The notes beneath the pieces were generated by a model. That model searched no databases. It saw nothing but the letters and a program-made list of their open reading frames with translations, and was not told the DNA's origin. Both the position numbers and the translations under genes were made by a program. A stretch of 64,000 bases of DNA from Arthrobacter sp. Bi83 (GTDB taxonomy: Bacteria; Actinomycetota; Actinomycetes; Actinomycetales; Micrococcaceae), in the NCBI RefSeq assembly GCF_918698095.1, contig NZ_CAKKLY010000016.1:1-64000 (forward strand), in the 5' to 3' direction. The first letter of the stretch is position 1. Each line of letters starts with the position of its first letter. Shown in pieces: positions 1 through 31,574 of this stretch.

Positions 1-47
1 TCCCAACCCGCTCCCCCATCCTTACCGTCAGGGCTGTCGAGGGATGA
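1..47 (+). CDS. Possible 3' end of an upstream ABC permease (partial)
   Basis: The window opens inside a reading frame that stays open to a TGA at 45-47, overlapping the ATG at 44. Its last residues read AVEG-stop. In the second cassette the permease before the same hydrolase ends AVKG-stop with the same ATGA overlap. This suggests cassette A is also preceded by an importer permease. Only about 15 codons are visible and upstream similarity is weak, so this is inference. Confidence 0.28.
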   Translation, partial: PTRSPILTVRAVEG

Positions 48-859
48 CCGCCGAGAACGCACGGCCCGTTCGCCTCGCGGTCGTCCAACACGTCATGCCG
101 GTCGGCGACCCCGAGCACAATCGCAAGCATCTCGCTGATATCGTCGCTGAGCACGGCAACGCCGACCTCATCGTCTTTCCCGAGATGTTTGTCCCTGGCT
201 ATGACCTGAACGTGGTCACCGCACGCAGCTCCGACCTGGCCGAGCACGCGAGGACCGGGCCGACCGCGAGGCTCGTCAAGGACCTGTCGAAGCGGCACGA
301 TGTGACCATCGTGGTCGGGTTCCTTGAGCGCGCCGAGGACGGCAAGTTGTGCAACTCGCTGCTCATCGCGGCTCCCGGTGGCAACCTTGCGACCTACCGC
401 AAGTCCCACCTGTTCCCCGCCGAGCTACCGGTGTTCGAAGCCGGGCACGAGCTGCCGGTGATCGCGACTCCCGCGGGCATCCTTGGGCCGCAGATCTGCT
501 TCGAGCACGCGTTCCCCGCCATTGCGACGACACAGGCCCTCGGGGGCGCCGAAATCCTCGTAATCCCCTCGGCTGTCGGCGCCGACCACGAGCACCTGAT
601 CGAGGTCCGGACACGGGCCCGGGCCCAGGACAATCAGATCTTCGCGATCGCAGCCAACTCCAACTCCCCGGGTTTCTGCGGGCACTCCTTGGTTGTGGAC
701 CCGCGGGGACGGGTCCTTGCGGCGGCCGGCCTCGAAGACGCCGTCCTCTGCACAACGCTCGATCTTTCGGAAATCCCCGCCGAACGCGGTCGCGAGCCCT
801 CGCTCCGGATGGGACGCCCGAACCTTTATATCCTCGGACACAGGGAGGACCAAGCATGA
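44..859 (+). CDS. Carbon-nitrogen hydrolase (nitrilase superfamily), cassette A
   Basis: A 271-residue cytosolic amidase-type enzyme of the nitrilase superfamily, which cleaves amide, carbamoyl or nitrile C-N bonds. The Glu-Lys-Cys triad is visible: E47 in FPEMF, K120 in YRKSHLF and C152 in QICFEHAFP. The length fits a single CN-hydrolase domain. The ATG at 44 overlaps the stop of a possible upstream permease, and its own TGA overlaps the next ATG at 856, so the genes are translationally coupled. It is a close paralogue of the protein at 26113-26928: nearly every residue around the triad is identical, with differences mostly at the N-terminus. The substrate is unknown; context with a glycosidase and a sugar kinase suggests a nitrogen-bearing sugar derivative. 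Confidence 0.9.
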   Translation: MTAENARPVRLAVVQHVMPVGDPEHNRKHLADIVAEHGNADLIVFPEMFVPGYDLNVVTARSSDLAEHARTGPTARLVKDLSKRHDVTIVVGFLERAEDGKLCNSLLIAAPGGNLATYRKSHLFPAELPVFEAGHELPVIATPAGILGPQICFEHAFPAIATTQALGGAEILVIPSAVGADHEHLIEVRTRARAQDNQIFAIAANSNSPGFCGHSLVVDPRGRVLAAAGLEDAVLCTTLDLSEIPAERGREPSLRMGRPNLYILGHREDQA

Positions 860-2571
860 GCAACCGCAAGCCGCGCGATGCCGGCAACGGCCTGCTCGCC
901 GCGTCATTTACCGAGAACGCTATCCTGGCCGTCACGCGACCCCACCCCCAGGTCGGAATGATCGAAGTGACCGGTGCCCGGGAGTTCTCCGAGGACCATG
1001 ACCGCGGTGTCGAGGCCCAGGTCAGGGCATACCGTGGTCATCTAGCCAGTGATGCCTCGGCCGCACTGCAGCTGTTCTCCGACACGCCCGTCACGCTCGA
1101 GGCAGATGCATATACGGCTGGCGCAGGGCTGGCCTGGACTGCCCGGTCCGCTGGAGTGCTCTCGGTCCGGTTTCGCGGTCGCCTACAACGACCGCCCTAC
1201 GCCGAAATCACCGACATCGAGCCCCCGCAGCCGCTCCCGCAGGACACTGTCTTCGAAATCGACGGCCCCGTGCTGGCTCTGCATTCCGCCGCCCTCAGCG
1301 CGCGTGCGACCATCACGGCCTCTTCACCGGCCGGTTCGGTGGGCTGGGTGGAGGTAGCCGGCGGCTTCGAATGCCAAGCCCCTGGTGGGACCTCCACCGA
1401 GCTGTCACTGAGCCTTGAACTCCAGGTCGACGGGGGCCTTCGGGCACCCAGGGGAGGAACCCACGTAGTGCCCGTCACGACCGGAAATCTCGCTGACAGG
1501 GCCAGCCAGGCGGCGCGCGCCTACGCGCTCGGGTGCTGCGCGCTCGATATTACCGAAGACCAGACCTGCGTCGTCACCGACCACCGCCTCCTGCCGCTCT
1601 CCTGGACGCGCGACGCCTACTTCATCGTCCTGCCCCTTTTGCTCCACGGCAAACCAGGGTCGGTTGAGGAAGACGTCTTGCGGCGCCACTTGAACTGGCT
1701 CTTCGGGCCCGCCCGCTCCGGTGGATCCTGGATGCGCAGCCACTTAACCGGGGGGGAGGTCAAAGACCCTGGACTGCAGGCGGACCAACAGCTGTATCCA
1801 GTCCTCGAGCTCGTCGACTTCCGTCGTCGGTTCGGGCGCTGGCCTTCAACGGACCTCACGCATTGGCAGCGGGGCATCGGGGCTGCCTTCAACGACCTCG
1901 TCATCTCACCCGAAACAGGGCTCCTCGTGAGCCAGGAAACCCCGGCCGACGACCCAGCGGAGTACCCTCATAACTTCTCGACCCAGATCTTGTTCTCCGA
2001 GGTGCTCAGCCGGCTCGGCGAGGTCGCCGACGAATTAGGGCTCGACGGCGCCGACCTCACGCGCAAAGCGGGAGAGGTGCGCGAGCAGAGCAAGGCACTA
2101 TTCCGGGTCGACACCGCCTCCGGTGAGGCGGCATACGCCTACGAAATCGACGGCAACGAAGGCTACCGCCTCTACGCCGATGCCAATGACCTCCCGACTG
2201 CCCTAGCAGCAGCATGGGGCTTCTGCTCGCCGGACGACCCTGCCTGGCGCACCACCATGGAAGCGTCCTTCGACCCCGCAGGGCCATACGCCTTGGCCGG
2301 CTCCTTCGGAGGACTCGGCTCAGTGCACACCGGAGGCGTGTGGGCGCTCGGCCTTGTCCAAGAGCTTATCTTCGCGCGAACCATAGTCGACGACGAACGC
2401 CAGACTCACGTCGCAAACGTTCTCGAGGATTTGCTGTCCGAGGATGGCATGTTGCCCGAAACTGCCGACCCGGAGACGGGAGAATGGCTGTCGCGTCACT
2501 GGTTCGGCTGGCCCGGCGCCGCGCTTGCATGCGTGCTCAGCTCCAACGATCTCCGCCCGCAGCTGCACTGA
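856..2571 (+). CDS. Six-hairpin glycoside hydrolase, GH125-like, cassette A
   Basis: A 571-residue protein starting at the ATG that overlaps the hydrolase stop; a longer frame running back to 349 is an artefact. The N-terminal ~200 residues look like a beta-rich domain. The C-terminal two thirds carry motifs arranged as in GH125 (exo-alpha-1,6-mannosidase, an alpha/alpha-six barrel): WTRDAY near residue 249, ADANDLP near 440, GSVHTGGVW near 490, MLPET with a candidate catalytic Glu at 535, and RHWFGWPGA just after. No signal peptide is seen, so it would act on an imported oligosaccharide. It may instead belong to a related glucoamylase or glucosidase group. It ends ~20 residues earlier than its paralogue at 26925-28703. 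Confidence 0.72.
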   Translation: MSNRKPRDAGNGLLAASFTENAILAVTRPHPQVGMIEVTGAREFSEDHDRGVEAQVRAYRGHLASDASAALQLFSDTPVTLEADAYTAGAGLAWTARSAGVLSVRFRGRLQRPPYAEITDIEPPQPLPQDTVFEIDGPVLALHSAALSARATITASSPAGSVGWVEVAGGFECQAPGGTSTELSLSLELQVDGGLRAPRGGTHVVPVTTGNLADRASQAARAYALGCCALDITEDQTCVVTDHRLLPLSWTRDAYFIVLPLLLHGKPGSVEEDVLRRHLNWLFGPARSGGSWMRSHLTGGEVKDPGLQADQQLYPVLELVDFRRRFGRWPSTDLTHWQRGIGAAFNDLVISPETGLLVSQETPADDPAEYPHNFSTQILFSEVLSRLGEVADELGLDGADLTRKAGEVREQSKALFRVDTASGEAAYAYEIDGNEGYRLYADANDLPTALAAAWGFCSPDDPAWRTTMEASFDPAGPYALAGSFGGLGSVHTGGVWALGLVQELIFARTIVDDERQTHVANVLEDLLSEDGMLPETADPETGEWLSRHWFGWPGAALACVLSSNDLRPQLH

Positions 2572-2837
2572 CAAGTGCACAACGAAGAGGCTCCCTTGAA
2601 CTCGAGACTTACAAACCCGCAGCGGAAAAGCGCCGGCGGGCATTTCCCTCGCGCCGGCCGTGGCCGCGGGACTGCCGTCTGCGGTCAGCCCACACTGGCC
2701 CGCACCCATGGCGCAGCATCGGAATCAGTACGGCCTACCCCCACACTGATATCGAATCCGACATCAACCAATGCACTTCCGACGTGGCAGCCCAGCTGGT
2801 GCAGCGGCAAGACTAATCTCTCAGGATCGGAGCAGCC
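2572..2837. other. 266-bp spacer between glycosidase and kinase, cassette A
   Basis: In cassette B these two genes overlap by 4 bases; here they are 266 bases apart. The edges still resemble the cassette B junction (AACGAAGAG near the left edge, GGAGCAGC just before the kinase ATG). This suggests insertion or decay within an originally contiguous junction. A short GC-rich inverted repeat (GCCGGCG/CGCCGGC) lies near 2629-2655. No gene is recognised in it. Confidence 0.5.
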
Positions 2838-3779
2838 ATGAGGACCTCGTCAACCAGAGCCGGTGTCTGCACCGTGATCGGCCTGGACATCGGCGGATCC
2901 AAGACCCACGGCATTAAGCTGGTGAATGGAGCGGTCGTAGAAGACCGGATCGCTGGGAGCGCGAACACGCAGAACGTCAGCACAGCCACTGCTGCCCAGA
3001 ACCTTGCAAACCTACTCAGGGCCCTCGGAGCGGATGAAGCCGAAGAGGTGTTCATCGGAGCCGGTGGCGTGGACACCGACGATGACAAGGATGCGCTTCA
3101 ACGCCTCATCACCCCCCATGTGCAACGAGCAAGGGTGACCATCGTTCATGACACCCGACTGATCCTTGCGGCCGCGGGCGCCCCCACAGGCATTGCGGTA
3201 ATCGCCGGCACCGGCTCCGCCGTCTGGGGCATCGCGCCCGACGGGGCAGAGGCACGAGCCGGAGGCTGGGGCTATCTCCTCGGCGACGAAGGAAGTGGCT
3301 ACTGGCTGGCCGGTGAATCAGTACGCCACGCTCTCCACCGAGCCAACCTAGGGCTCCGCAGGGACGACCTCACTGCGGCGCTGCTGGACGAATGCGGTCT
3401 CGACTCCCCCGAGGAACTGATCAGACTCTTCCATGGCGAGTCTGACCGGACCTACTGGGCGGATAAGTCACGGCTTGTCTTTGACTGCGCCAGAACGGGC
3501 CACCCTGCCAGCGTTGCCCTCATCCAGCAGGCAGGAAAAAGCCTTGCCGATCAAACGGGCCAAGTCGCCGCACGGCTCAGAATCCCCGGCCCCGTGGTCC
3601 TTGGAGGAGGACTTGGCGTAAATCAAACCGCCCTCCAGGAATCTTTCACCACCCACCTGGCGGCGCGCGGACTTACAGAGGTGCGAGTGCTCACAACCGA
3701 GCCTGTGTTTGGCGTCTCCTTCCTTGCGGAAAGAAACACGGACCAAAGCTCCCTGAGCTGGGCTGAACGAACTGCCTGA
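2838..3779 (+). CDS. BadF/BcrA-type sugar kinase (N-acetylglucosamine kinase-like), cassette A
   Basis: A 313-residue ASKHA-fold ATPase/kinase. The phosphate-1 motif GLDIGGSKTHG puts D17 at the start of the ATP site. VHDTR, then AGTGSAVWG, then GWGYLLGDEGSG follow in the order seen in N-acetylglucosamine kinases of the BadF/BadG/BcrA/BcrD family, with the adenosine motif VVLGGGLG near residue 255. The likely role is ATP-dependent phosphorylation of the sugar released by the neighbouring glycosidase. The ATG has GGAGCAG upstream. The paralogue at 28700-29659 shares the same motifs. An activator ATPase is possible but less likely in this context. Confidence 0.85.
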   Translation: MRTSSTRAGVCTVIGLDIGGSKTHGIKLVNGAVVEDRIAGSANTQNVSTATAAQNLANLLRALGADEAEEVFIGAGGVDTDDDKDALQRLITPHVQRARVTIVHDTRLILAAAGAPTGIAVIAGTGSAVWGIAPDGAEARAGGWGYLLGDEGSGYWLAGESVRHALHRANLGLRRDDLTAALLDECGLDSPEELIRLFHGESDRTYWADKSRLVFDCARTGHPASVALIQQAGKSLADQTGQVAARLRIPGPVVLGGGLGVNQTALQESFTTHLAARGLTEVRVLTTEPVFGVSFLAERNTDQSSLSWAERTA

Positions 3780-3929
3780 ATCAACCTGAACGTCAGCTCG
3801 AAAACACACATGATCGATCATGACGTCACCGAACCCGCTCAAGCCAACTTGACCACAATGGAGGACGTCGCAATCAGCCCCTCATTCGGAAGAATCACAC
3901 CCACCCGACCACTGCACAGGCCGTCGATG

Positions 3930-4211
3930 GATGCTCAGACCGGCACGCCGTACTGGGAACATGCCGGGAACGGAGCCATCCGCCGCGGCGACTGGAAGCT
4001 CGTTCCTACTTTCCCCGTGCCTTGGGAGCCGTATAACCTGGCCAAAGATCCCAAGGAATTAAACGACATGGTCACTGAAAACCGTGATCTCGCGGAATCA
4101 CTGCTCGGGGACTGGTCCCAGTGGGCAGACCGCGTCGGAGTCCTGCCCATTGTGCGGATCATTGAGCTCTATTCGCTCCGGGGCCGCCCGGCCATTGAAG
4201 CGTCCGGGTGA
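3930..4211 (+). pseudogene. C-terminal remnant of a sulfatase (arylsulfatase family)
   Basis: The frame open from 3810 to 4211 encodes, from about 3930, a tail typical of formylglycine-dependent sulfatases: YWEHAGNGAIRRGDWKLV, then WEPYNLAKDPKELNDM and WSQWADRVGVLP. In intact enzymes this lies at the end of a ~500-residue protein. The catalytic half with the Cys-x-Pro-x-Arg formylglycine site is absent, and the residues before 3930 do not look like a sulfatase. It is therefore a truncated relic. Its place just after cassette A suggests a sulfated glycoside was once part of the substrate range. Confidence 0.7.
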
Positions 4212-4982: not shown

Positions 4983-6053
4983 TCAACGTAGCAATGGCTG
5001 GGGACTGTTGGCATTGAGTGTGCGGTAGATCCGTCGGGCGAGGTAGCGCTTCACGCACCGACGAATTTCTTTCTTGGTTCGCCCTTCTGCTTGCCGCTTC
5101 GCTACGTATTTGATGGTCGCTGGATCGAACGCCATCCTCGTAAGAGCAACCATGTGAAGGGCTTTGTTCAGGGTCCTGTCGCCGCCGCGGTTGAGCCTAT
5201 GACGGACGGTATTTCCAGATGAAGCGGGAATGGGGTTGACCCCAGCCAGGGAGGCGAAAGCCGCCTCGGAACGTACCCGGCCCTGATGAGACCAAGCGGT
5301 AAGACAAATAGCTGCCGTGACTGGTCCGAAGCCGGATTCCTGCAGCAGCGGCGCCGCTTCGCTTACGTCAACCAGTTCGGTGATCCGGGAGCCGTTTGTT
5401 TTGATCTCAGCGTCAAGGTCGCCGATGCGCTTGGCCAGTCTGACCGCTTCAGAGCGGGCCACCGATACAGCAAGAGCTTCTTCACGGACCCGCCACCGGG
5501 ACACCTCCAGTATCTGACTTCCGCTCAGCGACTTGCGCGCATCGAAACCCAAATCATTGATCCGGAGCAGCGCGGTCAACGCGTTCACGGTCCTGGTCCG
5601 GTCGGTTGTCATCGAATGACGCGCAGTGATTAAGACCCGCAACGCTGCGCGCACCCCTTCGTTCAACCGTGGCCGGCGCAACTTATCCTCTTCCAAGGAA
5701 AGGACGGCAGAAGCGATCCTGTGCGCGTCCAACGGATCCGACTTACCAACCCCACGACGCGGCAGGGCGTCCATGCGCGTGGCTTCAGCAACCTGGTAGC
5801 CGGCAGCTGCGACAGCACCGGCCAACACGGCACCATAAGAAGCCGCGCCCTCAATCACCCATAGAGTGGCCAGATCGGCCTCGGTGCGACGCGCAACCCA
5901 AGCAATGGCGCGGTTGATCCCCGCGCCCGTAGCTGGGAAATCCCGGTTTCCGATCCGTTCGCCGTTTGCCGCGGCAATGATGGCGAAAACGTGCTTCCGG
6001 GCGTGGGTGTCGACACCCACGACAAACGGGTGGGAATACGCAACGATAGTCAT
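4983..6053 (-). CDS. IS110-family transposase (DEDD recombinase)
   Basis: A 356-residue transposase of about full length for the family. The N-terminal RuvC-like domain shows the DEDD acids: D15 in VGVDTH, E68 in VIEGA, and D106 and D109 in KSDPLDAHR. A coiled middle follows. The C-terminal Transposase_20 domain has FASLAGVNPIPASSGN and HRLNRGGDRTLNKALH, which include the serine region used by this family. IS110 enzymes recombine DNA guided by a structured bridge RNA made from the element's non-coding end. The frame is intact, so the copy may be active. Confidence 0.93.
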   Translation of the reverse strand: MTIVAYSHPFVVGVDTHARKHVFAIIAAANGERIGNRDFPATGAGINRAIAWVARRTEADLATLWVIEGAASYGAVLAGAVAAAGYQVAEATRMDALPRRGVGKSDPLDAHRIASAVLSLEEDKLRRPRLNEGVRAALRVLITARHSMTTDRTRTVNALTALLRINDLGFDARKSLSGSQILEVSRWRVREEALAVSVARSEAVRLAKRIGDLDAEIKTNGSRITELVDVSEAAPLLQESGFGPVTAAICLTAWSHQGRVRSEAAFASLAGVNPIPASSGNTVRHRLNRGGDRTLNKALHMVALTRMAFDPATIKYVAKRQAEGRTKKEIRRCVKRYLARRIYRTLNANSPQPLLR

Positions 6054-20210: not shown

Positions 20211-20801
20211 ATGGTTTCTTCATCTCCTCCCCTTCGGGAGAAGACGCGTGCTGTCGTCCGTTCCCTCATTGCCCAGACCGCTATGGCTGCGTTCGCTGAA
20301 AAGGGGTACGACCAGACCACCGTCGAGGAGGTCGCTGCCGCCGCCGGCGTCTCCAGACGCACGCTGTTCAACTACTTCAAGAGCAAGGAGGACCTGGCGC
20401 TCAGTGGGCTGTCAGAACAGGGCGAGCGGATCGCTGAACGCTTCGCCGCCTCAGCTGCGGACGAGGACATCTGGGAGTCCCTGCGTGCGGCCTTCCACGT
20501 GCTTGAAGAGATCGAGACCACCACAGAACGACGACTAGAGATCGTCACCCTCCTCTTCGGCAGTGAATCGCTGCGCGCCGGGCACGCCGAGAAACAGTCG
20601 CGCTGGCAGGAACTACTCGCACCGCAGATCGAGCAGCGGCTGCCCCTTTCAGAGCACCGATTGCTCGAGGCGCGGGCGATCGCAGCGGCGGCGATCACAT
20701 GCCTGCAAGCTGCCACGGAGGAATGGTCACGCCTGCGCGGGCGGGTCGACCTCTTTGACCTCTACGATGCGGCAGTCCAGGCGGTCCGCCGCGCACACTG
20801 A
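20211..20801 (+). CDS. TetR-family transcriptional regulator
   Basis: A 196-residue repressor. The N-terminal TetR helix-turn-helix includes AFAEKGYDQTTVEEVAAAAG and the recognition segment VSRRTLFNYFKSKEDL (residues ~25-60). The C-terminal helical ligand domain has no recognisable subtype. The ATG at 20211 is chosen because the HTH begins ~15 residues later; a frame open from 19338 is an antisense extension. It is divergently paired with the SDR and probably controls it in response to an aldehyde, ketone or drug-like ligand. Confidence 0.92.
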   Translation: MVSSSPPLREKTRAVVRSLIAQTAMAAFAEKGYDQTTVEEVAAAAGVSRRTLFNYFKSKEDLALSGLSEQGERIAERFAASAADEDIWESLRAAFHVLEEIETTTERRLEIVTLLFGSESLRAGHAEKQSRWQELLAPQIEQRLPLSEHRLLEARAIAAAAITCLQAATEEWSRLRGRVDLFDLYDAAVQAVRRAH

Positions 20802-21353
20802 GTCCCCACCGATCCGCACGCCCAGCCCGCACCAGACCCATTTACTCAACGGATCCCGGCAGTACAGGACCGCCTCTGCAAGTAGGGCTGGGACGGTCGT
20901 GCCCAAGAAGTTCCTGCGAGTGTCCGGCCCGAAATCCGGCTTTGGCGGCACAGCATGATCCCTACACGGCCCCCTGATTTCCGGGAGGGATGCAAAAGGT
21001 AGAGACACCGCCCGATTGAGCTACACCCCAATCTGACGCTGGGTGCGCTGACAAGGGGAACTCGCCTGTCGGTGGGAGCCCGGCGTGGTTCTCAGACAGC
21101 TGCCCAGGCGCAGAGGTGATATCGCGACCTTTTCGTCTGGCGAGTTCCATGCCTCCGTTTCTTGGGTGCTATTTCGATGATTCCAGGGCTTCCGCACCTC
21201 CGTTTCCCGCGCCCCTGACCAGGAGTGAAGCCTGGAATCCAGTCGGGCGAAGTAGTGTTGCCGTATGTCCACTTTGCGGTTTCCGAATGTCTGTGTGCGA
21301 CTCGGCGCACCCGCCGCTTCCCGGTGCGGCAAGTGCAGGGACGCCAGAAGTTG
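20802..21353. other. 550-bp gap upstream of the GntR regulator
   Basis: No convincing gene. It contains the motif TACACCCCAATCTGACG at 21022-21038, found again with one mismatch at 31455-31471. It also holds a bulged inverted repeat, GATTCCAGGGCTTC at 21179-21192 and GAAGCCTGGAATC at 21227-21239, about 115-175 bases before the GntR start. The latter may be an operator or leader structure. Confidence 0.5.
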
Positions 21354-22787
21354 ATGTTGAATCAGCTGGATCCTGCTTCGAGGAGCCCCCTCTATGTGCA
21401 ACTGAAGGATTCCCTCGTCAAGGCCATTCTGGAGGGGCGTTTTGGTACTGACGGTCAGCTCCCTACCGAACACGAACTCTGTGGGCAGCTCGGAATCTCC
21501 CGCAACCCTGTTCACCGTGCAATGGCAGAGTTGTTCGATGAGGGAGTGATCATCCGACAGAGGCGCAAGGGAACCTTCGTTAACCCGGCCTGGATCACGC
21601 GGCAGTTGAGCGACACGCGCGTACGCCTGATCGTCCCGACAGAGGACTGGGCCGGTCTCGTACGAAGCGTCAGCCCGGCGGAGATCATTCTCGATGTGGA
21701 GGTTGTCCCCTTCCCGGACCTGCACCGCTACCTGCTGGCCGCGGTTGCGGGGGGCGACGCGCCTGATCTTGCGGTGCTCGACTCGGTCTGGGTCCCGCAG
21801 TTGGCCGCGGTTGACGCTCTTTGCCCGATCGATGACCTCGACGCGCAGTGGGTGGAGCAGACGTATCGCGCCGATGTGGGCCGTGCCTTTATCGAGGCCA
21901 CGAGCTATCATGGTCGCGTCGTCGCGGTCCAGGCGGAAGTGGATGTTGCAGGTCTCTGGTTTGATCGCGAGAGCGTGGCTCGCGCCGGCTTTGTCCACGC
22001 GCCGACGACAGTGCGCGAGCTTCGGCAAGTCGCCCGGGGATGCCGTGAATTATACGGACGGCCGCCGATCGCGGTGCCCGCAGGACCGGACGCCGCCGAG
22101 ACTGCCACCTATGTTCTGCACGGCTGGCTCAGTGCCCATGGCGCGTCCGTCATAGCTGAGGAGACGGTCGTTCTCGCCGAGCCGGCTGCCATTCGCGCGG
22201 CCCGGGCATTCTCGACGCTTGTCAAAGATGGTCTCGTCGATGAAAGGAGTGCCGGATGGGGCCGGAAGTCCGCCCTGCAGTCACTCGCGTCCGGGTACAG
22301 CCAGATTGCGCTGGGCGGCAGCTATGACCTCGCCGATCTGGCCGCACTGACCGGTCTCTCACCCATCCAGTCCCTGGACCGCTTCGGATTCGCTCCGCTT
22401 CCCGCAGCGCCCGAGCCTGGGGCGAAAGTACTCGCAGGCGGCCTCGCCTACGCCGTGTTCCGCCAATCGCGCCAACCGCATCTGGCGATGCGAATCATCC
22501 GCCGACTGATGGAAGCAACGGTTCAAATGACCGTGGCCGACACCACCGGGCAGCTGCCGTCCCGGGTCAGCGCCGCATCGGTGCTTGCGCGAGGCACGGG
22601 TTTCCTCCACGACGTGGCCCGAGTCCTCCCGGAGGCCACTACCCGACCTGCCATTCCGGAGTATGAGCGGGTAAGTGCCCAGCTCAGGCACCTCCTCGCG
22701 GCCATCGTCTCCGGCGCGTCGATTCCCCGGGAAGTGCGCCTCGCGGCCCAGGGCATCTCTGCGGTCACTGGCCTCCCCCTGGCCTGA
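21354..22787 (+). CDS. GntR-family regulator fused to a solute-binding-protein-like domain
   Basis: A 477-residue protein. Residues ~8-75 are a GntR winged helix: SPLYVQLKDSLVKAILEG, LPTEHELCGQLGISRNPVHRAM, GVIIRQRRKGTFV. The rest (~110-440) is not a usual FadR, HutC or aminotransferase effector domain. It resembles a family-1 extracellular solute-binding protein (PDLAVLDSVWVPQLAAVDALCPIDD, then AVQAEVDVAGLWFDRE), with no signal peptide. It therefore probably senses the imported sugar intracellularly with a binding-protein fold. ATG 21354 is chosen; an upstream in-frame extension lacks similarity. It is followed by the importer and cassette B and presumably regulates them. Confidence 0.85.
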   Translation: MLNQLDPASRSPLYVQLKDSLVKAILEGRFGTDGQLPTEHELCGQLGISRNPVHRAMAELFDEGVIIRQRRKGTFVNPAWITRQLSDTRVRLIVPTEDWAGLVRSVSPAEIILDVEVVPFPDLHRYLLAAVAGGDAPDLAVLDSVWVPQLAAVDALCPIDDLDAQWVEQTYRADVGRAFIEATSYHGRVVAVQAEVDVAGLWFDRESVARAGFVHAPTTVRELRQVARGCRELYGRPPIAVPAGPDAAETATYVLHGWLSAHGASVIAEETVVLAEPAAIRAARAFSTLVKDGLVDERSAGWGRKSALQSLASGYSQIALGGSYDLADLAALTGLSPIQSLDRFGFAPLPAAPEPGAKVLAGGLAYAVFRQSRQPHLAMRIIRRLMEATVQMTVADTTGQLPSRVSAASVLARGTGFLHDVARVLPEATTRPAIPEYERVSAQLRHLLAAIVSGASIPREVRLAAQGISAVTGLPLA

Positions 22788-22849
22788 CCAGGCTTCGCTC
22801 CGTTCCCTTCCGCTGATAACCCTATCGGCCGCTTCAGCATGCCATCACC

Positions 22850-22901
22850 TTGACATCCGTACCCCCACCCCTCACCATTTGTAATGTCGAAGATGACAAA
22901 T
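22850..22901 (+). promoter_or_regulatory. Promoter and operator of the CUT1 importer/cassette B operon
   Basis: TTGACA at 22850-22855 is a perfect -35 word, with CACCAT 17 bases on as a weak -10. Overlapping and downstream is an inverted repeat, ATTTGT at 22877-22882 and ACAAAT at 22896-22901, with partial inner symmetry. It is a candidate site for the upstream GntR protein. Confidence 0.45.
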
Positions 22902-22919
22902 AAATCCTCGGAGGGCTCC

Positions 22920-24224
22920 ATGACCATCACATTTTCGCGAGGCCGCCGCGTAGCGGCTCTCGCAACCGCACTTATCGGCGTAGCGCCGTTGGCCGCTTGC
23001 TCAGGAGGCAATCCAGGCGCCGACGCGTCCGGTAAGCCGAGCGGTGAGATCCGCGTCGTTGCGAACTGGACAGGCGTTGAAGGCCAGGCCTTCCAAGCCG
23101 TGGTCGACGGATTCCAGGCCAAGTACCCGGGCACGAAGGTGAAAGTTGATACTGTTCCCTTCGACCAAACCCAGACGCAGCTTGCACAGCAATTCGCCTC
23201 AGGCAACGCGCCCGACGCTGCCGTAGCACTTCCCAGCACAGTTCGTCAGTTCTCGAAACAGGGTCTGCTGATGAACCTGGACGATGAGTGGAAGTCCTGG
23301 CTTGACCAGGGAGCGTACAACGACTCCCTGAAATCGATCGTAATGGGCTCGGACGCCCACGCCGATGCGGTGTATTTCAAGGGCAACGTGAACGGACTCA
23401 TCTGGTCCACAAAGAAGACCGACACCACCCTCGGGCTGACCAAGGCCCCCGCAACCTGGGACGAGTTCACCGCTGCCCTGGACAAGGCGAACACCTCATC
23501 CAAAGCATTTTCAGTCGGCGCCAAGGATGTCTGGGTGCCTACTCAGTGGGTTGATCCGGTCATGCTTAATGTTGCGGGTGTGGATAAATACCAGCAATTG
23601 CAGCAGGGCAAAATTGGGTGGGATGATCCCAAGATCGTTGAGGCCATGACGGTGCTCACCGGACTCATCGACAAGTATTGGTCCTCAGATGCGCTGGACA
23701 CCGGTTTCAGCAACGAGGTCTGCGGCTGGGTCTCCGGCCAGCACGCCTTCGGCAACAACGGCGCCTTCGTCAACGCCGTCGTTCCGTCCTGCGATAAAAA
23801 CCTCAAGCCCGGAGATGATTACTCCTTCTTCCCGCTGCCTGCGTACAAAGACCAGAAACCTGCCCAGGCAGTCAGCGGCGACCTGTTCATCGGGAGCAAG
23901 CAGACCAAGAACCCGGCTACAACCAAGGCATTCCTGGACTACGTCGGGTCTGTCGACGGCCAGTCGATCTGGGCCAAGAAGGGCGGCTACATTGCCCCGA
24001 ACATGAAGGTCCCGGCGGATGTTTACCCGACCCCCAATGACAAAAAAGCTGCCGCTCTCTGGCCTAAAGACGCCTCCACCCAGGCCGGCTACGACCTCGA
24101 TGACTGGATCGGAGGCGAGATCCAGGTGAAATACCGCCAGGCCCTTGATGACCTGATCCGCACCAAGGACGTCGCATCGTTCACGAAGACGATGACCAGC
24201 GTCGATACCCGCTCGAAGGGCTAA
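22920..24224 (+). CDS. Sugar ABC transporter substrate-binding lipoprotein (CUT1)
   Basis: A 434-residue family-1 extracellular solute-binding protein. From ATG 22920 (GGAGGG just upstream) the N-terminus reads as a lipoprotein signal: basic RGRR, a hydrophobic run and lipobox PLAAC. The mature protein has GEIRVVANWTG, FQAVVDGFQAKYPG, QLAQQFASGNAPDA and GDLFIGSKQTKNP, which follow the order of oligosaccharide binders. It delivers its ligand to the two permeases downstream. An upstream ATG at 22884 would precede the signal unnaturally. No ATPase gene is in the operon, so a shared MsiK-type ATPase elsewhere probably energises it. Confidence 0.92.
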   Translation: MTITFSRGRRVAALATALIGVAPLAACSGGNPGADASGKPSGEIRVVANWTGVEGQAFQAVVDGFQAKYPGTKVKVDTVPFDQTQTQLAQQFASGNAPDAAVALPSTVRQFSKQGLLMNLDDEWKSWLDQGAYNDSLKSIVMGSDAHADAVYFKGNVNGLIWSTKKTDTTLGLTKAPATWDEFTAALDKANTSSKAFSVGAKDVWVPTQWVDPVMLNVAGVDKYQQLQQGKIGWDDPKIVEAMTVLTGLIDKYWSSDALDTGFSNEVCGWVSGQHAFGNNGAFVNAVVPSCDKNLKPGDDYSFFPLPAYKDQKPAQAVSGDLFIGSKQTKNPATTKAFLDYVGSVDGQSIWAKKGGYIAPNMKVPADVYPTPNDKKAAALWPKDASTQAGYDLDDWIGGEIQVKYRQALDDLIRTKDVASFTKTMTSVDTRSKG

Positions 24225-24230
24225 AGAAAC

Positions 24231-25289
24231 ATGATGACGAGCCGCGCCCGAACAGCGCCTCCCACCAACGCCGGGCAGAACACAAGTACGGTCCCCGTCC
24301 CGTCAGGACGCGCCAAGCGACGCGGGCGCGGCTCCGAAACCCGTCTTGCCTACATCTTCCTTGCCCCGCTGCTGGCAATCTTTGCCGGCTTCTATCTCTG
24401 GCCTGCCGTGGCGACGTTCCTTTCGAGCTTCTTCACGTGGGGAATGCTCAACCCCTGGCGGGCGGATCAGCCCGACACTTGGGTCCCTGCCGGAATTGAC
24501 AACTACACCACTACGCTCACGAGTGCGGACTTTTGGAACGCTGCACTCAATTCAGTGGTATGGCTCATCGTTTTTCCGTTCCTGGTCGTGGTCATCTCCC
24601 TCGCGCTCTCCCTGCTTATCTGGGAAGCGAAAAAGGGCACCGGGTTCTTCCGCAGCGCTATCATCTTGCCGATGACGATCTCTCTGGCCGCGGTCGGTGT
24701 CATCTGGGGGTTCATCTACAACCCGGACCCCAACAAGGGGCTGCTCAACGCAGCCTTGAAGCTCATCGGCGTGGGCAATGCCGACCTGAATATCGGTCCG
24801 CTCGAGCTGCACCTTGGCCGCTGGCTGTCCAATCCCGGCGTGCTGCATCTGGGCGGGCTGGACGTCCGGCTCACCAATATCATGATCATCATCCCAGCTG
24901 TGTGGGCTTTCGTCGGCTTCGGCGTCATCACCTTCACAGCCGGCCTCACCTCGGTACCGGCTGAGTTGGTCGAGGCATCGAAGGTGGACGGGGCCTCGCG
25001 GTGGCAGACCATCCGGCACGTAACCCTTCCGAGCCTGCGGCCCTCGATTGTCGTCGTCGTCGTGATCTCGATCATCTTCGCCTTGCGGACCTTCGACATC
25101 GTGTTCGTCACGACCGGCGGCGGCCCCGCTCAAGACACCGAAGTCCTGGGATTGCTGCTGTGGCAACAGGCGTTCCAGTTCCTCGACTCCCCCAAAGCCG
25201 GGCAGGCCGCCGCGATCGCCATCATCATGTCGTTCGTACTTATTGCCGCCGCCATGCCCTTCCTCCGCAAGAACGGAAACCCCTCATGA
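24231..25289 (+). CDS. Sugar ABC transporter permease 1 (MalF/UgpA type)
   Basis: A 352-residue membrane protein with about six transmembrane segments after a ~35-residue basic N-terminal tail. The EAA loop that docks the ATPase is LVEASKVDGASRWQTIRHV near residues 245-263. Between the third and fourth segments is a long periplasmic loop with LHLGRWLSN. It starts 6 bases after the binding-protein gene and overlaps the second permease by 4 bases (ATGA). Confidence 0.92.
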   Translation: MMTSRARTAPPTNAGQNTSTVPVPSGRAKRRGRGSETRLAYIFLAPLLAIFAGFYLWPAVATFLSSFFTWGMLNPWRADQPDTWVPAGIDNYTTTLTSADFWNAALNSVVWLIVFPFLVVVISLALSLLIWEAKKGTGFFRSAIILPMTISLAAVGVIWGFIYNPDPNKGLLNAALKLIGVGNADLNIGPLELHLGRWLSNPGVLHLGGLDVRLTNIMIIIPAVWAFVGFGVITFTAGLTSVPAELVEASKVDGASRWQTIRHVTLPSLRPSIVVVVVISIIFALRTFDIVFVTTGGGPAQDTEVLGLLLWQQAFQFLDSPKAGQAAAIAIIMSFVLIAAAMPFLRKNGNPS

Positions 25290-26116
25290 CGTCCCAGTGG
25301 CGCACGCTTACCCTCTACGCCATTCTTACCGTGGCAAGCATTGTCTGGATTGTTCCCGTTGTTGGTGCTGGTGCCATCGCCGTCCTGCCGCTTGATCAGA
25401 GCACCAAAGGATGGTGGACGGCCGACCCGGCCACGGTGACGTTCGCTAACTTCGGCCGGGTCTGGGACGGTGGCCTCTCCGGCTACGCTGTGAACAGTCT
25501 CATCATCGCCGTGCTGTCCGTGCTCATCACGCTCGCCGTCGGAACGGTCGCCGCGTACGCCTTCGCCCGGATGCGCTTTCGGTTCAAGGGCTTCGTCCAC
25601 GTCATGCTGCTCACGACCATGATCGTGCCCGTCCAGATCATCCTGATCCCGCTCATCCCGTGGTTCCGGACACTGGGCCTTAACAACGGGTCATGGCAGT
25701 ATCTCGGCATCGCCCTGGTCCATACAGCATTCGGCGCGGGATGGTCGATCTTCATGCTGAGCAGCTTCTTCGAAGGTATCCCGAACGAACTTCTTGAGAG
25801 CGCCAAGATCGATGGTGCGGGATCGTTCAAAGCGTTCAGCGCCATCGCCCTTCCGCTCGCCCTCCCGGGCATCGTGTCGTTCGTCATCATCGACTTCGTA
25901 TTCGTATGGAATGACCTGCTTATGGGCCTCACACTGCTTGATGCCGATCACCGTCCGATCACTGTCGGACTGGCGAACCTGAACGCGCCTCAGCTCAACC
26001 AGGACGACCTCATCTCGGCCGGATCCATCCTCGCGATCCTGCCCCCGCTGCTCCTGTTTGCCCTGCTGAACCGTTACTACGTCAAGGGACTTTTCGCCGG
26101 GGCGGTCAAAGGATGA
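25286..26116 (+). CDS. Sugar ABC transporter permease 2 (MalG/UgpE type)
   Basis: A 276-residue membrane protein with six predicted segments. It pairs with permease 1 in a CUT1 importer. The EAA loop is ELLESAKIDGAGSFKAFSAI, and the C-terminal motif RYYVKGLFAGAVKG is typical of MalG partners. The ATG at 25286 overlaps the previous stop, and its own stop overlaps the hydrolase ATG at 26113. Importer and catabolic cassette therefore form one translational chain. Confidence 0.93.
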   Translation: MTSQWRTLTLYAILTVASIVWIVPVVGAGAIAVLPLDQSTKGWWTADPATVTFANFGRVWDGGLSGYAVNSLIIAVLSVLITLAVGTVAAYAFARMRFRFKGFVHVMLLTTMIVPVQIILIPLIPWFRTLGLNNGSWQYLGIALVHTAFGAGWSIFMLSSFFEGIPNELLESAKIDGAGSFKAFSAIALPLALPGIVSFVIIDFVFVWNDLLMGLTLLDADHRPITVGLANLNAPQLNQDDLISAGSILAILPPLLLFALLNRYYVKGLFAGAVKG

Positions 26117-26928
26117 TGACCGAAACGACGCGATGTGTTCGCCTGGCTGTTGTCCAGCACGTTATGCCTGTCGGCGACCCCGAGTACAGCCGCCGGCATC
26201 TCGCCGATGTGGTCAAAGAGCATGGCGACGCCGACCTCATCGTCTTTCCCGAAATGTTCATCCCCGGATACGACCTTGCCGTGGTCACTGCCCGAAGCGC
26301 CGACCTGGCTGAGCATGCCAGGACCGGGCCCACCGCGAGGCTCGTTCGGGACCTGTCGCAACGGCACAATGCGACCATCGTGGTCGGGTTTCTCGAACGC
26401 GCCGAGGACGGCAAGCTGTGCAACTCCTTGCTCATCGCCGCCCCCGACGGGGACCTCGCGACTTACCGTAAGTCCCACCTGTTCCCTGCCGAGCTGCCCG
26501 TATTTGAAGCCGGGCACCAGCTTCCGGTCATTGCAACTCCTGCCGGCGTCCTGGGACCGCAAATCTGCTTCGAGCACGCGTTTCCCGCCATCGCGACCAC
26601 GCAGGCACTCGGGGGCGCCGAAATCCTTGTCATCCCCTCGGCGGTCGGAGCCGACCATGAGCACCTGATCGAGGTACGCACGCGCGCCCGCGCCCAGGAC
26701 AACCAAATCTTCGCGATCGCAGCCAACTCCAACTCGCCGGGCTTCTGCGGACACTCCATGGTCGTCGATCCCCGGGGGCGCGTTCTCGCCGCGGCCGCAC
26801 TCGACGACGTGGTCCTCCGCGCTACCCTCGACCTGTCGGAAATCCCTGCAGAACGGGGCCGTGAACCCTCGCTCTGGATGGGACGCCCGAACCTCTACCT
26901 CTTCGGCCACAGGGAGGACGAAGCATGA
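26113..26928 (+). CDS. Carbon-nitrogen hydrolase (nitrilase superfamily), cassette B
   Basis: A 271-residue paralogue of the protein at 44-859 with the same E47, K120 and C152 triad. Differences concentrate at the first ~40 residues and scattered surface positions. Overlaps of 4 bases with the permease before and the glycosidase after show a tight operon. As here the gene is directly coupled to an importer, its substrate is probably the imported compound or the product of the glycosidase: an amide, carbamoyl or N-acyl group on a sugar. Confidence 0.92.
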   Translation: MMTETTRCVRLAVVQHVMPVGDPEYSRRHLADVVKEHGDADLIVFPEMFIPGYDLAVVTARSADLAEHARTGPTARLVRDLSQRHNATIVVGFLERAEDGKLCNSLLIAAPDGDLATYRKSHLFPAELPVFEAGHQLPVIATPAGVLGPQICFEHAFPAIATTQALGGAEILVIPSAVGADHEHLIEVRTRARAQDNQIFAIAANSNSPGFCGHSMVVDPRGRVLAAAALDDVVLRATLDLSEIPAERGREPSLWMGRPNLYLFGHREDEA

Positions 26929-28703
26929 GCAAACGCAAGCCCCGAGACGTCGGCAACGGCCTGCTCGCCGCCTCGTTCACAGAGACCGCAATCCTTGCTG
27001 TCACCCGACCACACCCACTGCTCGGCATGGTCGAAATGACCGGGGCCCGGGAATTCTCGGAGGACCAGGACCGGGGAGTCGAAGCCCGGGTCCGGGCATA
27101 CCGAGCCCACCTCGCGAGTGACGCCTCGGCTGCACTGCAGCTGCTCTCGAACAATCCCGTTACGCTCGAGGCAGACGTAACCACGCGCGGCTCAGGCCTG
27201 GCCTGGACCACTCGGTCCACCGGACCATTATCCATACGGTTCCGCGGCCGCCTGCAACGCCCACCCTACGCCGAAATCACCGACATCAAACCTCCGCAGC
27301 CGATCCCGCAGGACACTGTCATCGACGTCCACGGGCCTGTGCTGACCCTCCGGTCCGCCGCCCTCACCGCGGGCGCGACCATCACCGCCTCGTCACCAGC
27401 CGGTCAAGTGGGCTGGGTGCAGGTTGGAGGGGACTTCGAATGCCACGCCCCGGGCAGGACCTCCTCCGAGTTGTCATTGACCGTGGACCTCCAGGTCGAC
27501 GGCGGTCTTCGCTTCCCCAGGGGAGGGACGCACGTCGTCGCTGCCACAGTCGGTGATCTTTGTGACCGAGCCATTCACGCTGCACGCGCCTACGCTCTTG
27601 GCTGCTGCGCGCTCGATGTCACCGAAGACCAAACCTGCGTCGTCACGGACCACCGCCTCCTGCCACTGTCCTGGACGCGCGACGCCTACTTCATCGTCCT
27701 GCCTCTCCTGCTCCATGGCGAAACCGGATCGGTTGAGGAAGACGTCGTACGCCGCCACCTGAACTGGCTCTTCGGGCCCGCCCGCTCCGAAGGGCCCTGG
27801 ATGCGCAGCCACCTAACGGGCGGCCAGGTCAAAGACCCGGGGCTCCAGGCGGACCAGCAGCTGTATCCAGTCCTCGAGCTCGTCGACTTCCGGCGACGGT
27901 TCGGGCACTGGCCTTCAACGGACCTTCCCCATTGGCAGCGCGGCATCGAAGCTGCCTTTAGGGATCTCGTCATCTCCCCGGAAACAGACCTGCTCGTCAG
28001 CCAGGAAAACCCAGCCGACGATCCCGCCGAGTACCCGCACAACTTCTCAACCCAGATCCTGTTCTCCGAAGTGCTCAGCCGGCTCGGCCAGGTTGCAGAC
28101 GAACTTGGGCTCGACGGCGCTGAGGTACGTCGAAGAGCCCACAGGGTACGCGAACAGACCAAAGCCCTGTTTCAAGTCGATAGCCCCTCCGGGCGCCCAG
28201 CCTACGCCTACGAGGTGGACGCCAGCGACGGGTACCGCCTGTACGCCGACGCCAATGACCTACCAACTGCCCTCGCGGCAGCGTGGGGTTTCTGCTCGCC
28301 GGAGGACCCGGCGTGGCGCACCACCATGGAAGCGGCCTTCGACAGCGCAGGACCCTATGCCTTGAGGGGTCCGTTCGGTGGACTCGGGTCCGTGCACACA
28401 GAAGGTGTGTGGGGGCTGGGTCTCATCCAGGAGCTCATCTTCGCGCGGGCCGTTGGCGACGATGAACGCCAGGCGCGCGTCCTTGGCACTCTAGAGGAGT
28501 TGATGTCCGAGGAGGGCATGCTGCCCGAAACTGCTGACCCCTTAACGGGCGAGTGGTTGTCCCGGCACTGGTTCGGATGGCCCGGCGCCGCGCTTGCATG
28601 CGTTCTGAGCTCCAACGATCTCCGCCCACAGCCGAACGGACCCAATCACTACGAAGAGATCGTCCCGCCACGGCTAACTCCTCAAGGAAGGAGCAGCGAA
28701 TGA
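26925..28703 (+). CDS. Six-hairpin glycoside hydrolase, GH125-like, cassette B
   Basis: A 592-residue paralogue of 856-2571 with the same domain plan and motifs: WTRDAY, HNFSTQ, ADANDLP, GSVHTEGVW, MLPETAD with the candidate catalytic Glu, and RHWFGWPGA. It has ~20 more C-terminal residues (ending QGRSSE) than the cassette A copy, and its stop overlaps the kinase ATG. No signal peptide is present, so it is intracellular. GH125 enzymes are exo-alpha-1,6-mannosidases; the relation here is from motif order, so the sugar released is uncertain. Confidence 0.75.
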   Translation: MSKRKPRDVGNGLLAASFTETAILAVTRPHPLLGMVEMTGAREFSEDQDRGVEARVRAYRAHLASDASAALQLLSNNPVTLEADVTTRGSGLAWTTRSTGPLSIRFRGRLQRPPYAEITDIKPPQPIPQDTVIDVHGPVLTLRSAALTAGATITASSPAGQVGWVQVGGDFECHAPGRTSSELSLTVDLQVDGGLRFPRGGTHVVAATVGDLCDRAIHAARAYALGCCALDVTEDQTCVVTDHRLLPLSWTRDAYFIVLPLLLHGETGSVEEDVVRRHLNWLFGPARSEGPWMRSHLTGGQVKDPGLQADQQLYPVLELVDFRRRFGHWPSTDLPHWQRGIEAAFRDLVISPETDLLVSQENPADDPAEYPHNFSTQILFSEVLSRLGQVADELGLDGAEVRRRAHRVREQTKALFQVDSPSGRPAYAYEVDASDGYRLYADANDLPTALAAAWGFCSPEDPAWRTTMEAAFDSAGPYALRGPFGGLGSVHTEGVWGLGLIQELIFARAVGDDERQARVLGTLEELMSEEGMLPETADPLTGEWLSRHWFGWPGAALACVLSSNDLRPQPNGPNHYEEIVPPRLTPQGRSSE

Positions 28704-29659
28704 GGGCATCGTCAGCCATGACCGGTGTCCGTACGGTGATCGGTCTGGACATCGGCGGCTCCAAAACCCACGGCATTAAGCTGGTGGATGGGTCGGTCGT
28801 AGAAGACCGGATCGCAGGGAGCGCCAACACTCAGAACGTCAGCACAACCACGGCTTCCCGGAACCTCGCCGGCCTTCTCAAGGCCCTCGGAGCGGATGAA
28901 GCGGACGAGGTGTACGTCGGATCCGGTGGTGTGGACACCGACGCCGACAAGGCGGCACTGCGCAGCCTTATTACCCCCCATATTCCAGGTGTCGCGGTGA
29001 CCATAGTTCATGACACCCGACTGATTCTTGCCGCCGCGGGCGCCCGGACAGGTATCGCCGTCATCGCTGGCACGGGCTCCGCCGTCTGGGGCATCGCCCC
29101 CGACGGTACAGAGGCAAGAGTCGGAGGCTGGGGCTATCTCCTCGGCGACGAAGGAAGTGGCTACTGGCTCGCTCGTGAATCAGTACGCCATGCACTTCAC
29201 CGAGCCAACCTCGGGCTGCCCACCGATGACCTCAGCACGGCGCTGCTGGAAGAGTGCGGTCTCAACTCCCCCGAGGAACTGATCCGGCTCTTCCACGGCG
29301 GCGCCGACCGGACCTACTGGGCAAATAAGTCACGACTTGTTTTCGCCTGCGCCCAAATGGGCCACCCAGAGAGCCTCATCCTCATTCAGCAGGCAGGCAA
29401 AAGCCTCGCCGAGCAGGCGCTCCAAGTCGCCACTCGGCTCGGGATACCCGGTCCCGTGGTCCTTGGAGGAGGTCTCGGCGTCAATCAGGTCGCGCTCCAG
29501 GAATCATTCACCACCCACTTGGCCGCGCACGGACTAACGGAGGTTCACGTTCTCACGACCGAGCCGGTGTTCGGTGTCCCCTTCCTGGCTGGGAAAACAT
29601 CAGCCAGCACTCCTGAAGTGGACTACATGATGATGCCCTCCACTCGAGCCCACCATTAG
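28700..29659 (+). CDS. BadF/BcrA-type sugar kinase (N-acetylglucosamine kinase-like), cassette B
   Basis: A 319-residue paralogue of 2838-3779. GLDIGGSKTHG, VHDTR, AGTGSAVWG, GWGYLLGDEGSG and VVLGGGLG are all retained. The ATG at 28700 overlaps the glycosidase stop by 4 bases. It should phosphorylate the hexose or amino sugar freed by the preceding enzymes, trapping it for glycolysis. A frame extending back to 28553 overlaps the glycosidase and is rejected. Confidence 0.88.
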   Translation: MRASSAMTGVRTVIGLDIGGSKTHGIKLVDGSVVEDRIAGSANTQNVSTTTASRNLAGLLKALGADEADEVYVGSGGVDTDADKAALRSLITPHIPGVAVTIVHDTRLILAAAGARTGIAVIAGTGSAVWGIAPDGTEARVGGWGYLLGDEGSGYWLARESVRHALHRANLGLPTDDLSTALLEECGLNSPEELIRLFHGGADRTYWANKSRLVFACAQMGHPESLILIQQAGKSLAEQALQVATRLGIPGPVVLGGGLGVNQVALQESFTTHLAAHGLTEVHVLTTEPVFGVPFLAGKTSASTPEVDYMMMPSTRAHH

Positions 29660-29678
29660 TACGGAGTACAAGCCCAAA

Positions 29679-29912
29679 ATGAGCGCCACACAGTTCACGG
29701 TGAAAGACAACCCAAGCAAACTTTACTCAACCGAAGAAGTGACGGTCTCCTTTTGCAAGGACCCCAAAGTCGGACGAATTTGGGTCATGTCACGCTCAGA
29801 ATTAGCCGACCTGCAGGCCGCGATTGAAGCGTACCTAGCAACAAAGCGCGGGCGGCACGACGGCAGGCCCGCAAAGGTCCGCCACGCACAAATCAACACG
29901 CGTGGGCGGTGA
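29679..29912 (+). CDS. Small hypothetical protein
   Basis: A 77-residue protein 19 bases after the kinase. The first ~60 residues look like a small alpha/beta unit (EVTVSFCKDP, RIWVMSRSELADLQAAIEAYL) followed by a basic tail rich in Lys and Arg. I do not recognise the family. A poor ribosome site makes expression uncertain. It could be a small regulatory or DNA-binding protein of the operon. Confidence 0.5.
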   Translation: MSATQFTVKDNPSKLYSTEEVTVSFCKDPKVGRIWVMSRSELADLQAAIEAYLATKRGRHDGRPAKVRHAQINTRGR

Positions 29913-29990
29913 GGGTGCGTGCCCCCGGAATCCGTACGGACCGCCCGCTGCGGTTAATAATCGATGTCGGTGACCAATAGAGGTAGGTAT

Positions 29991-30473
29991 ATGAGACGCG
30001 CAAAAATTGTGGCTACGTTCGGCCCGGCAGTTGCCAGCTACGAAAACATCCTCGCGGTGCTGGAGGCCGGCAGTGACGTCGCCCGCATGAACATGAGCCA
30101 CGGCGACTACACCGTGCCCGACGTTGCCGAACCTGACTCGACACTCCAGCACCAACCCGCGCGGGCCATCGCACAGGCAGCCGCCCAAACAGGGCTGACA
30201 GCAGCCGACTTCGATCTGATCGAAATCTATGAAGCCTTCGCCCGTGTCGCACTCGACAGCGCCGCCGCCCCTAACATCCCTGCAGAGAAAATCAACGCCA
30301 ACGGGGGTGCGATCGCTCTCGGACAACCCATCGGCGCGTCCGGAGCCCGCCTGGTCCTGCATACCGGTTTGGAACTGGGCCGCCGCGGGACAGGACGCGG
30401 AGTCGATGCGCTGTGTGGCGGAGGCGGACAAGGCGATGCCATGGTCCTGTACGGACCGGACCAGACCGCATGA
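29991..30473 (+). CDS. Chimeric ORF: pyruvate kinase N-terminus joined to thiolase C-terminus
   Basis: A 160-residue frame with AGGTAGGT upstream. Residues 1-44 ([23 protein letters not shown]) are the start of actinobacterial pyruvate kinase. From about residue 50 ([14 protein letters not shown] onward) it is the C-terminal third of an acetyl-CoA acetyltransferase. The thiolase part has YEAFA where active enzymes have NEAFA, and GQPIGASGA where they have GHPIGASGA, so the catalytic His is lost; the CGGGGQG Cys is kept. It cannot be either enzyme. Its stop overlaps the glycerate kinase ATG, so it may survive as a translational leader. It could equally be a pseudogene fusion. Confidence 0.7.
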
Positions 30474-31432: not shown

Positions 31433-31454
31433 CGCGGCAGGTTTGCGGTTTGGT

Positions 31455-31508
31455 TACACCCCAACCTGACGTCAGGTAAGAGGCCGATGGGCGTCAGCAT
31501 AGGGTGTG
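31455..31508. repeat. Motif TACACCCCAACCTGACG with inverted partner
   Basis: TACACCCCAACCTGACG at 31455-31471 contains half of a perfect 14-bp palindrome, ACCTGACGTCAGGT (31464-31477). An imperfect inverted copy CGTCAGCATAGGGTGTG lies at 31492-31508. The left word recurs at 21022-21038 (16/17) and partly at 4699-4712. It may terminate the glycerate kinase transcript or mark an element end. Confidence 0.5.
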
Positions 31509-31574
31509 ATTCCCCTTTTCCGACACGGCTCAAGAGGCTCTTAGAGCTCAACCTGACAATACTGATCCCCCAGC

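Follow-up and report, generated by a model that had tools for sequence, protein, structure and literature searches.

A twice-present nitrilase, GH125-clade hydrolase and kinase cassette in Arthrobacter sp. Bi83, a candidate for the catabolism of mannosylglycerate-type solutes

The window analysed here, a 64,000-nucleotide stretch of Arthrobacter sp. Bi83 (contig NZ_CAKKLY010000016.1, positions 1 to 64,000), carries two copies of a three-gene cassette, each consisting of a nitrilase-superfamily amidase (nit), a hydrolase related to glycoside hydrolase family 125 (GH) and a BadF-type sugar kinase (kin). Under the preferred reading, to which we give a rough probability of 0.45, copy B forms the end of a translationally coupled operon for the uptake and degradation of a small, mannosylglycerate-like alpha-hexoside, with an amide removed first. 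The parts of this reading differ in strength: that the operon serves the catabolism of an imported small alpha-hexoside is very probable, a glycerate-type aglycone stands at even odds, and action of the amidase on an amide of that aglycone is a tentative proposal. The cassette genes are:

44..859, forward strand: nit A, nitrilase-superfamily amidase
856..2571, forward strand: GH A, GH125-clade hydrolase
2838..3779, forward strand: kin A, BadF/NagK-type sugar kinase
26113..26928, forward strand: nit B, nitrilase-superfamily amidase
26925..28703, forward strand: GH B, GH125-clade hydrolase (N-terminal domain ~1-205 and (alpha/alpha)6 domain ~210-565, by profile, alignment and model)
28700..29659, forward strand: kin B, BadF/NagK-type sugar kinase

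Copy B closes an importer operon in the order solute-binding protein (SBP), permeases P1 and P2, nit, GH and kin, on one strand after a GntR-type regulator and with four successive ATGA overlaps (P1/P2, P2/nit, nit/GH and GH/kin). The genes around the cassette are:

21354..22787, forward strand: GntR-type protein with an SBP-like sensor domain, the probable regulator (GntR and SBP_bac_8/SBP_bac_1 matches; ATG at 21354)
22884..24224, forward strand: importer solute-binding protein SBP (SBP_bac_1, 109.5 bits)
24231..25289, forward strand: importer permease P1 (CUT1 permease similarity)
25286..26116, forward strand: importer permease P2
30470..31432, forward strand: short-form glycerate kinase, a possible member (TIGR00045, 238 bits)

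An initial annotation of this DNA, made from the sequence alone, had linked a catabolic set to import and reasoned from the C-N hydrolase to an amide-bearing glycoside; the first point holds and the second is reasonable. The ATGA overlaps it gave for both trios occur at three of the four internal junctions, the exception being GH/kin of copy A (gap of 266 bp), and the importer that it called complete comprises the SBP and two permeases but no ATPase gene. Actinobacterial importers of the CUT1 kind commonly share one ATPase. The glycerate kinase starts 0.8 kb downstream of kin B, with a gene remnant intervening; a similarly long homologue (58% identity) is encoded on an Arthrobacter plasmid.

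Between the end of copy A and the start of copy B lie 22,333 bases, and the protein identities between the copies (nit 239/271, 88%; GH 470/571, 82%; kin 245/313, 78%) bear out the earlier description of a duplicated nitrilase-GH125-like-kinase trio 22 kb apart. DNA identity is 82-83% over 2529 bp and 916 bp, and the Pfam families CN_hydrolase, Glyco_hydro_125 and BcrAD_BadFG exceed their cut-offs in copies A and B alike. The ratio of nonsynonymous to synonymous divergence (dN/dS; Nei-Gojobori, GH and kin without their divergent C-terminal tails) was 0.083 for nit, 0.151 for GH and 0.209 for kin, at dS of 0.79, 0.69 and 0.50, respectively. With dN/dS at 0.08-0.21 and dS at 0.50-0.79, both copies have been under purifying selection and have stayed functional for long. 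On the same comparison the duplication, or double acquisition, is judged not to be recent; a recent tandem duplication is ruled out by dS of 0.5-0.8. On the preferred reading copy A is an older set, held by selection much like that on copy B. Its first base is position 44 of the contig, and the assembly has no close second copy of the copy B importer that could belong to it, since the next-best match to P2 has ~30% identity and the best five others 29-36%. The last C-terminal residues of GH A, beyond the conserved domain, are unlike those of GH B.

GH125 (PF06824) is the sole Pfam family above cut-off for the hydrolase (68.3 bits for GH A and 65.8 for GH B; gathering threshold, 23.4), with a match in the C-terminal half covering profile positions 204-407 of 414, and the solved relatives are GH125 mannosidases. 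In an alignment of six clade members and nine classical GH125 proteins, D365/D366, D442-A443-N444, G488-S489, H491, E535, R547, W549-F550 and W552 are invariant and W250, R252 and D253 nearly so, the row of a frameshifted relative (genome G317) being truncated there. In CpGH125, Arg64/Asp65 are described as holding O3/O4, Asp220 as the acid, Glu393 as the base and Asn302 as contacting mannose O2, as Arg567 of the GH15 glucodextranase does for glucose (PMC9883506). Mapped by motif through the aligned GH125 sequences (CpGH125 itself lies outside the alignment), these residues appear to correspond to R252/D253, D365, E535 and N444, all present in GH A and GH B, and GH A carries all of the catalytic and -1 subsite motifs. 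The GH125 kinship with intact catalytic acids proposed by the initial annotation is thus confirmed.

Compared with the GH125 exo-alpha-1,6-mannosidases CpGH125 and SpGH125, the window enzyme is alike in its (alpha/alpha)6 fold, catalytic acid and base, -1 subsite residues and Pfam score above cut-off, but differs in an additional N-terminal domain of ~205 residues, a whole-length identity of 21-23% to the nine aligned classical members, its separate clade and its other neighbours. In a tree of 16 rows, midpoint-rooted only, the six clade rows stand apart from ten classical rows (support, 100/100), and the hydrolase does not group within the classical single-domain GH125. An AlphaFold model from 13 rows (mean predicted local distance difference test score, pLDDT, 63.0), which replaced a model from 6 rows (mean pLDDT 54), has a barrel mostly at 70-95 with dips to 44-63 at residues 241-250 and 281-310, and matches GH125 structures (Z-score 35.3, root-mean-square deviation 3.1, 358 residues aligned to 3qt9) ahead of the next family (Z-score 30.5). 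Model residues from 1 on overlap GH15 glucoamylase structures, a hint only; the N-terminal domain is poorly predicted. Overall, the hydrolase belongs to a rare sister clade of GH125 and is, by alignment and model, GH125-like in fold and chemistry. Neither copy matches PF22422 or NF047898, the models for GH63-like mannosylglycerate/glucosylglycerate hydrolases, and NF047898 has no match in the window's own genome; judged by neighbourhood, GH would resemble those hydrolases in job, not in family membership.

In other genomes it is the combination of GH and a CUT1 importer that is found again, not the trio. A Chloroflexota locus (L001) has the order regulator-SBP-P1-P2-ATPase-GH, with GH starting 4 bases past the end of the ATPase gene; a second locus (L024, genome G013) has an importer like that of L001 divergent from GH, and in a third (L004, genome G205) the ATPase gene adjoins GH. 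Where genes were present and compared, these importers were 39-44% (SBP), 47-49% (P1) and 50-54% (ATPase) identical to those of a Micrococcaceae operon from the same genus as the window (L072, genome G602), and P2 of L001 was 54% identical to that of L072. As a control, P1 of L072 reached only 22.5-30.5% identity to the permeases of 12 importer loci in the window's genome, the copy B operon included. After SBP, P1, P2 and ATPase, L072 encodes a glucosylglycerate hydrolase (675.7 bits for NF047898; cut-off, 550), a glycerate kinase, a relative of kin B with 58-59% identity and a ROK regulator. This operon thus shares with the window an importer, a hydrolase, a glycerate kinase and a related kinase, but differs in its GH63-like hydrolase, the presence of an importer ATPase and the lack of a nitrilase.

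The SBP of L001 matched 93 plasmid records at E 1e-40, 71 of them from Rhizobium, and in all 13 plasmid loci opened SBP-P1-P2-ATPase was followed by a relative of mannosylglycerate hydrolase. Twelve of these loci came from the SBP lists (ten genera, with three Rhizobium records) and one (L103) from a hydrolase search; of the twelve, L101 and L106 were also in the hydrolase list and the other ten were not. A fourteenth locus, from Nocardia (L104) and found by its hydrolase alone, had no match to the L001-type importer. The five mannosylglycerate-hydrolase-type enzymes scanned all match PF22422 (365-391 bits), and all five stay below the glucosylglycerate cut-off (348-403 against 550). For two plasmid-locus enzymes compared with solved structures, the nearest were Thermus 2z07/4wva (E 1.8e-142 and 1.2e-121), with the mycobacterial structure at 2.1e-77 and 8.4e-68; 4wva and 4wvb are labelled as GH63 mannosylglycerate hydrolases and the mycobacterial structure as a glucosylglycerate hydrolase. 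As the mycobacterial enzyme is described as hydrolysing both glucosylglycerate and mannosylglycerate (PMC6608630), the importer subfamily may take either solute. Because the GH of L001 occupies the slot held by a mannosylglycerate-hydrolase-type enzyme in 13 of 13 loci, it would, by this analogy, do the same job from a different family. The window cassette is comparable to the GH63-like operons (Thermus MgH 4wva; PF22422) through the importer subfamily of L001, L024 and L004, the gene slot in L001 and the predicted reaction, but in the window the hydrolase comes from a different family and the importer from a different subfamily, and a nitrilase and a kinase are present as well. Given the importers of its relatives and the kinase of L072, GH probably splits an alpha-hexosyl, likely mannosyl, solute of the glycerate type.

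In two of the 13 plasmid loci, those from Loktanella and Paracoccus, genes for a D-lyxose/D-mannose isomerase and for a glycerate kinase are also present. The mannosylglycerate-type operons of L103, L108 and L109 continue with such an isomerase (annotated in one case as an ATP synthase chain), and L103 and L109 additionally have a MOFRL-type glycerate kinase. These operons may use a mannose route without an initial kinase.

Both nit copies have E47, K120 and C152, which we take to be the Glu-Lys-Cys catalytic residues of the nitrilase superfamily, and match CN_hydrolase (162 bits for nit A, 158 for nit B). The fold family and these residues are shared with Nit2/omega-amidase-like enzymes and an archaeal nitrilase (2w1v, 3ivz), but nit falls far below the equivalog cut-offs. 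None of the NCBIfam models listed for nit reaches its cut-off, so the substrate is not fixed by family. The solutes of Rhodothermus marinus are reported to include mannosylglyceramide, the neutral counterpart of mannosylglycerate (PMC1224877). An amidase that acts before a mannosylglycerate-type hydrolase would therefore be chemically sensible.

The kinase matches PF01869 (BadF/BcrAD) at 70 (kin A) and 83 bits (kin B) against a gathering threshold of 31.5, and its best solved matches are the hexokinase 2e2n and the MurNAc/GlcNAc kinase 8zo3, with which it shares family and ATPase motifs. Unlike NagK-type enzymes, it does not reach the cut-off of the NagK equivalog NF046058 (65-68 bits against 370). 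Relatives of kin B occur in 201 of 290 family genomes (its own included). With 57% identity to the housekeeping kinase of the family and a similar value for the L072 kinase, kin B is about equally near to both, so its sugar is not decided by relatedness. An amino sugar as the leading substrate, considered in view of the NagK-like kinase (the initial annotation called it of the amino-sugar type), was set aside as less likely because kin is far under the NagK cut-off and widespread in the family, where its relatives are mostly in a housekeeping setting, one standing in a glucosylglycerate operon.

In the proposed route, the CUT1 importer, whose genes are observed and whose ligand is a prediction, would take the solute in, and nit would strip a primary amide, most plausibly from alpha-mannosylglyceramide or a similar neutral amide, yielding the acid and ammonia. 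GH would then split the alpha-mannosyl bond to mannose and glycerate, presumably with inversion, D365 serving as acid and E535 as base; here fold and residues come from alignment and model, and the aglycone from neighbourhoods. The freed hexose would be phosphorylated by kin, and glycerate could enter metabolism through one of two glycerate kinases in the window. The most specific form of this proposal, a first pathway for the catabolism of alpha-mannosylglyceramide (or another hexosylglyceramide) through a dedicated amidase and a GH125-clade mannosylglycerate hydrolase evolved apart from the GH63 type, is rather unlikely.

The distribution of the genes is narrow. Among 295 family genomes the only close GH match was the window's own genome, 13 others being 27-32% identical (the seven of these that were aligned are all classical GH125), and 394 class genomes gave no match beyond it at E 1e-30. 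Of 396 phylum genomes five others matched (G013, G205, G317, G028 and G390); G028 holds fragments without a profile match at 1e-30, and G390 was dropped as a chance match inside an open reading frame (ORF) read as a lipoate enzyme. Within the class of G013 one of three genomes matched, and within the class shared by G205 and G317 two of 66. A scan of genome contigs, which finds close relatives only, gave one GH locus. For the nitrilase, 245 genomes searched at E 1e-40 returned only the window's own, and 227 phylum genomes at E 1e-35 returned two others (37-40% identity), within whose 14-kb surroundings no GH or kinase of the cassette kind was seen. Plasmids had no nitrilase or GH match of at least 60%.

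Several observations count against a mannosylglycerate-type role. The full trio was in no other genome among those searched, and no nitrilase or kin of the cassette kind stood beside the GH relatives, several contigs being short enough that a more distant nitrilase would be missed. Of the two outcomes that the initial annotation had named beforehand as telling against its proposal, confinement of the trio to this genome fits what the genome searches gave, and loss of the catalytic acids does not occur. The window importer belongs to another subfamily: BLAST at E 1e-4 gave no match between its SBP and that of L001, L024 or L072. This importer is partly shared only with the G317 locus (L025; P1 47-59% in pieces, P2 41% over 104 residues), where a clade GH adjoins window-type permeases and both are frameshifted, in a decayed or poorly assembled locus. 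Uptake of a neutral amide rather than an anion might call for a different importer, though this is conjecture. Two of the hydrolase relatives are frameshifted (G317) or fragmentary (G028), and G317 has a separate glucosylglycerate-hydrolase-like gene (352 bits, under the cut-off). Most kin relatives are a housekeeping gene of the family: 22 of 29 flanked kin B relatives adjoin an unrelated gene, presumably nitronate-monooxygenase-like, and one of 29 (L072) lies in a glucosylglycerate operon. Further, the N-terminal domain is poorly predicted in the hydrolase model, and the glycerate kinase at 30470-31432 is not contiguous with copy B.

It is unlikely that GH is instead an exo-alpha-mannosidase on short manno-oligosaccharides or N-glycan/mannoprotein fragments, as in classical GH125, with kin serving mannose or an amino sugar. 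The GH125 fold, the mannose-recognising residues and a kinase of the NagK/BadF group fit such a role, but the enzyme falls in a separate clade (100/100) with an extra domain, the nitrilase would be without an evident role, and the two classical GH125 genes looked at adjoin GH38 or GH92 enzymes, whereas three clade members lie by mannosylglycerate-type importers. Another amide, carbamate or nitrile alpha-hexoside (e.g. a carbamoylated mannose), from which nit would strip the group before GH and the kinase process the sugar, is improbable: the nitrilase superfamily includes enzymes for amides, carbamoyl groups and nitriles, nit reaches none of the listed NCBIfam cut-offs and the window importer is unlike the mannosylglycerate type, but no neighbourhood evidence for such a compound was found and the GH relatives indicate glycerate-type solutes. 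That the operon handles mannosyl- or glucosylglycerate while nit, merely co-regulated, scavenges nitrogen from an unrelated amide is more improbable still, since nit of copy B sits between permease and GH with ATGA overlaps on both sides and precedes GH in copy A too despite the old divergence, even though the GHs of L001, L024 and L004 have no nitrilase next to them.

The literature library searched had no paper joining GH125 with mannosylglycerate or 'glucosylglycerate hydrolase' with 'glycerate kinase', no such cassette judging by the listings, and, among its five works mentioning mannosylglyceramide, no title on its breakdown. If the mannosylglycerate-type reading is true, mannosylglycerate is hydrolysed by two unrelated enzyme families. 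This would widen GH125 past alpha-mannan and N-glycan work and help to explain how bacteria recycle solutes that others amass when exposed to heat, salt or drought, and the matched amidase would be a first handle on mannosylglyceramide turnover. The cassette is small and lends itself to direct assay.

Other features of the window were recorded. Third-position GC ranges over 0.68-0.82 in genes of the cassette and operon and over 0.83-0.93 in six others, but foreign composition was dropped as a sign of acquisition because other window genes are equally low (e.g. 0.73-0.81 over 43714-53045). The ORF at 3810-4211 after copy A, once called a sulfatase remnant, has no significant Pfam match (best E 0.087), and an IS110-family transposase lies downstream at 4983-6053 (reverse strand). 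The regulator at 21354-22787 fuses a GntR DNA-binding domain to a CUT1-type solute-binding domain that is 27-28% identical over ~110 residues to the adjoining SBP. The remnant between kin B and the glycerate kinase is a chimeric ORF (29964-30473, forward strand), its first ~50 residues matching pyruvate kinase and the remainder a thiolase C-terminal domain. A scan that covers only some promoter types gave no promoter-like site in 20800-31600, and there were no tRNA genes in the window. The second glycerate kinase (57422-58681) is 49% identical to that of L072 and lies in what we take, from names read off the sequences, to be a glyoxylate/allantoin cluster (53711-60772, forward strand). Stretches at 31582-32039 and 34266-34410 are 81-93% identical to parts of an ABC-exporter-like gene region (35654-36297) and lie on either side of a 2-kb segment that holds SDR-like and TetR-like genes (named from sequence), resembling a broken second copy. 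At 61327-61510 there are short repeats (43-67 bp), both direct and inverted.

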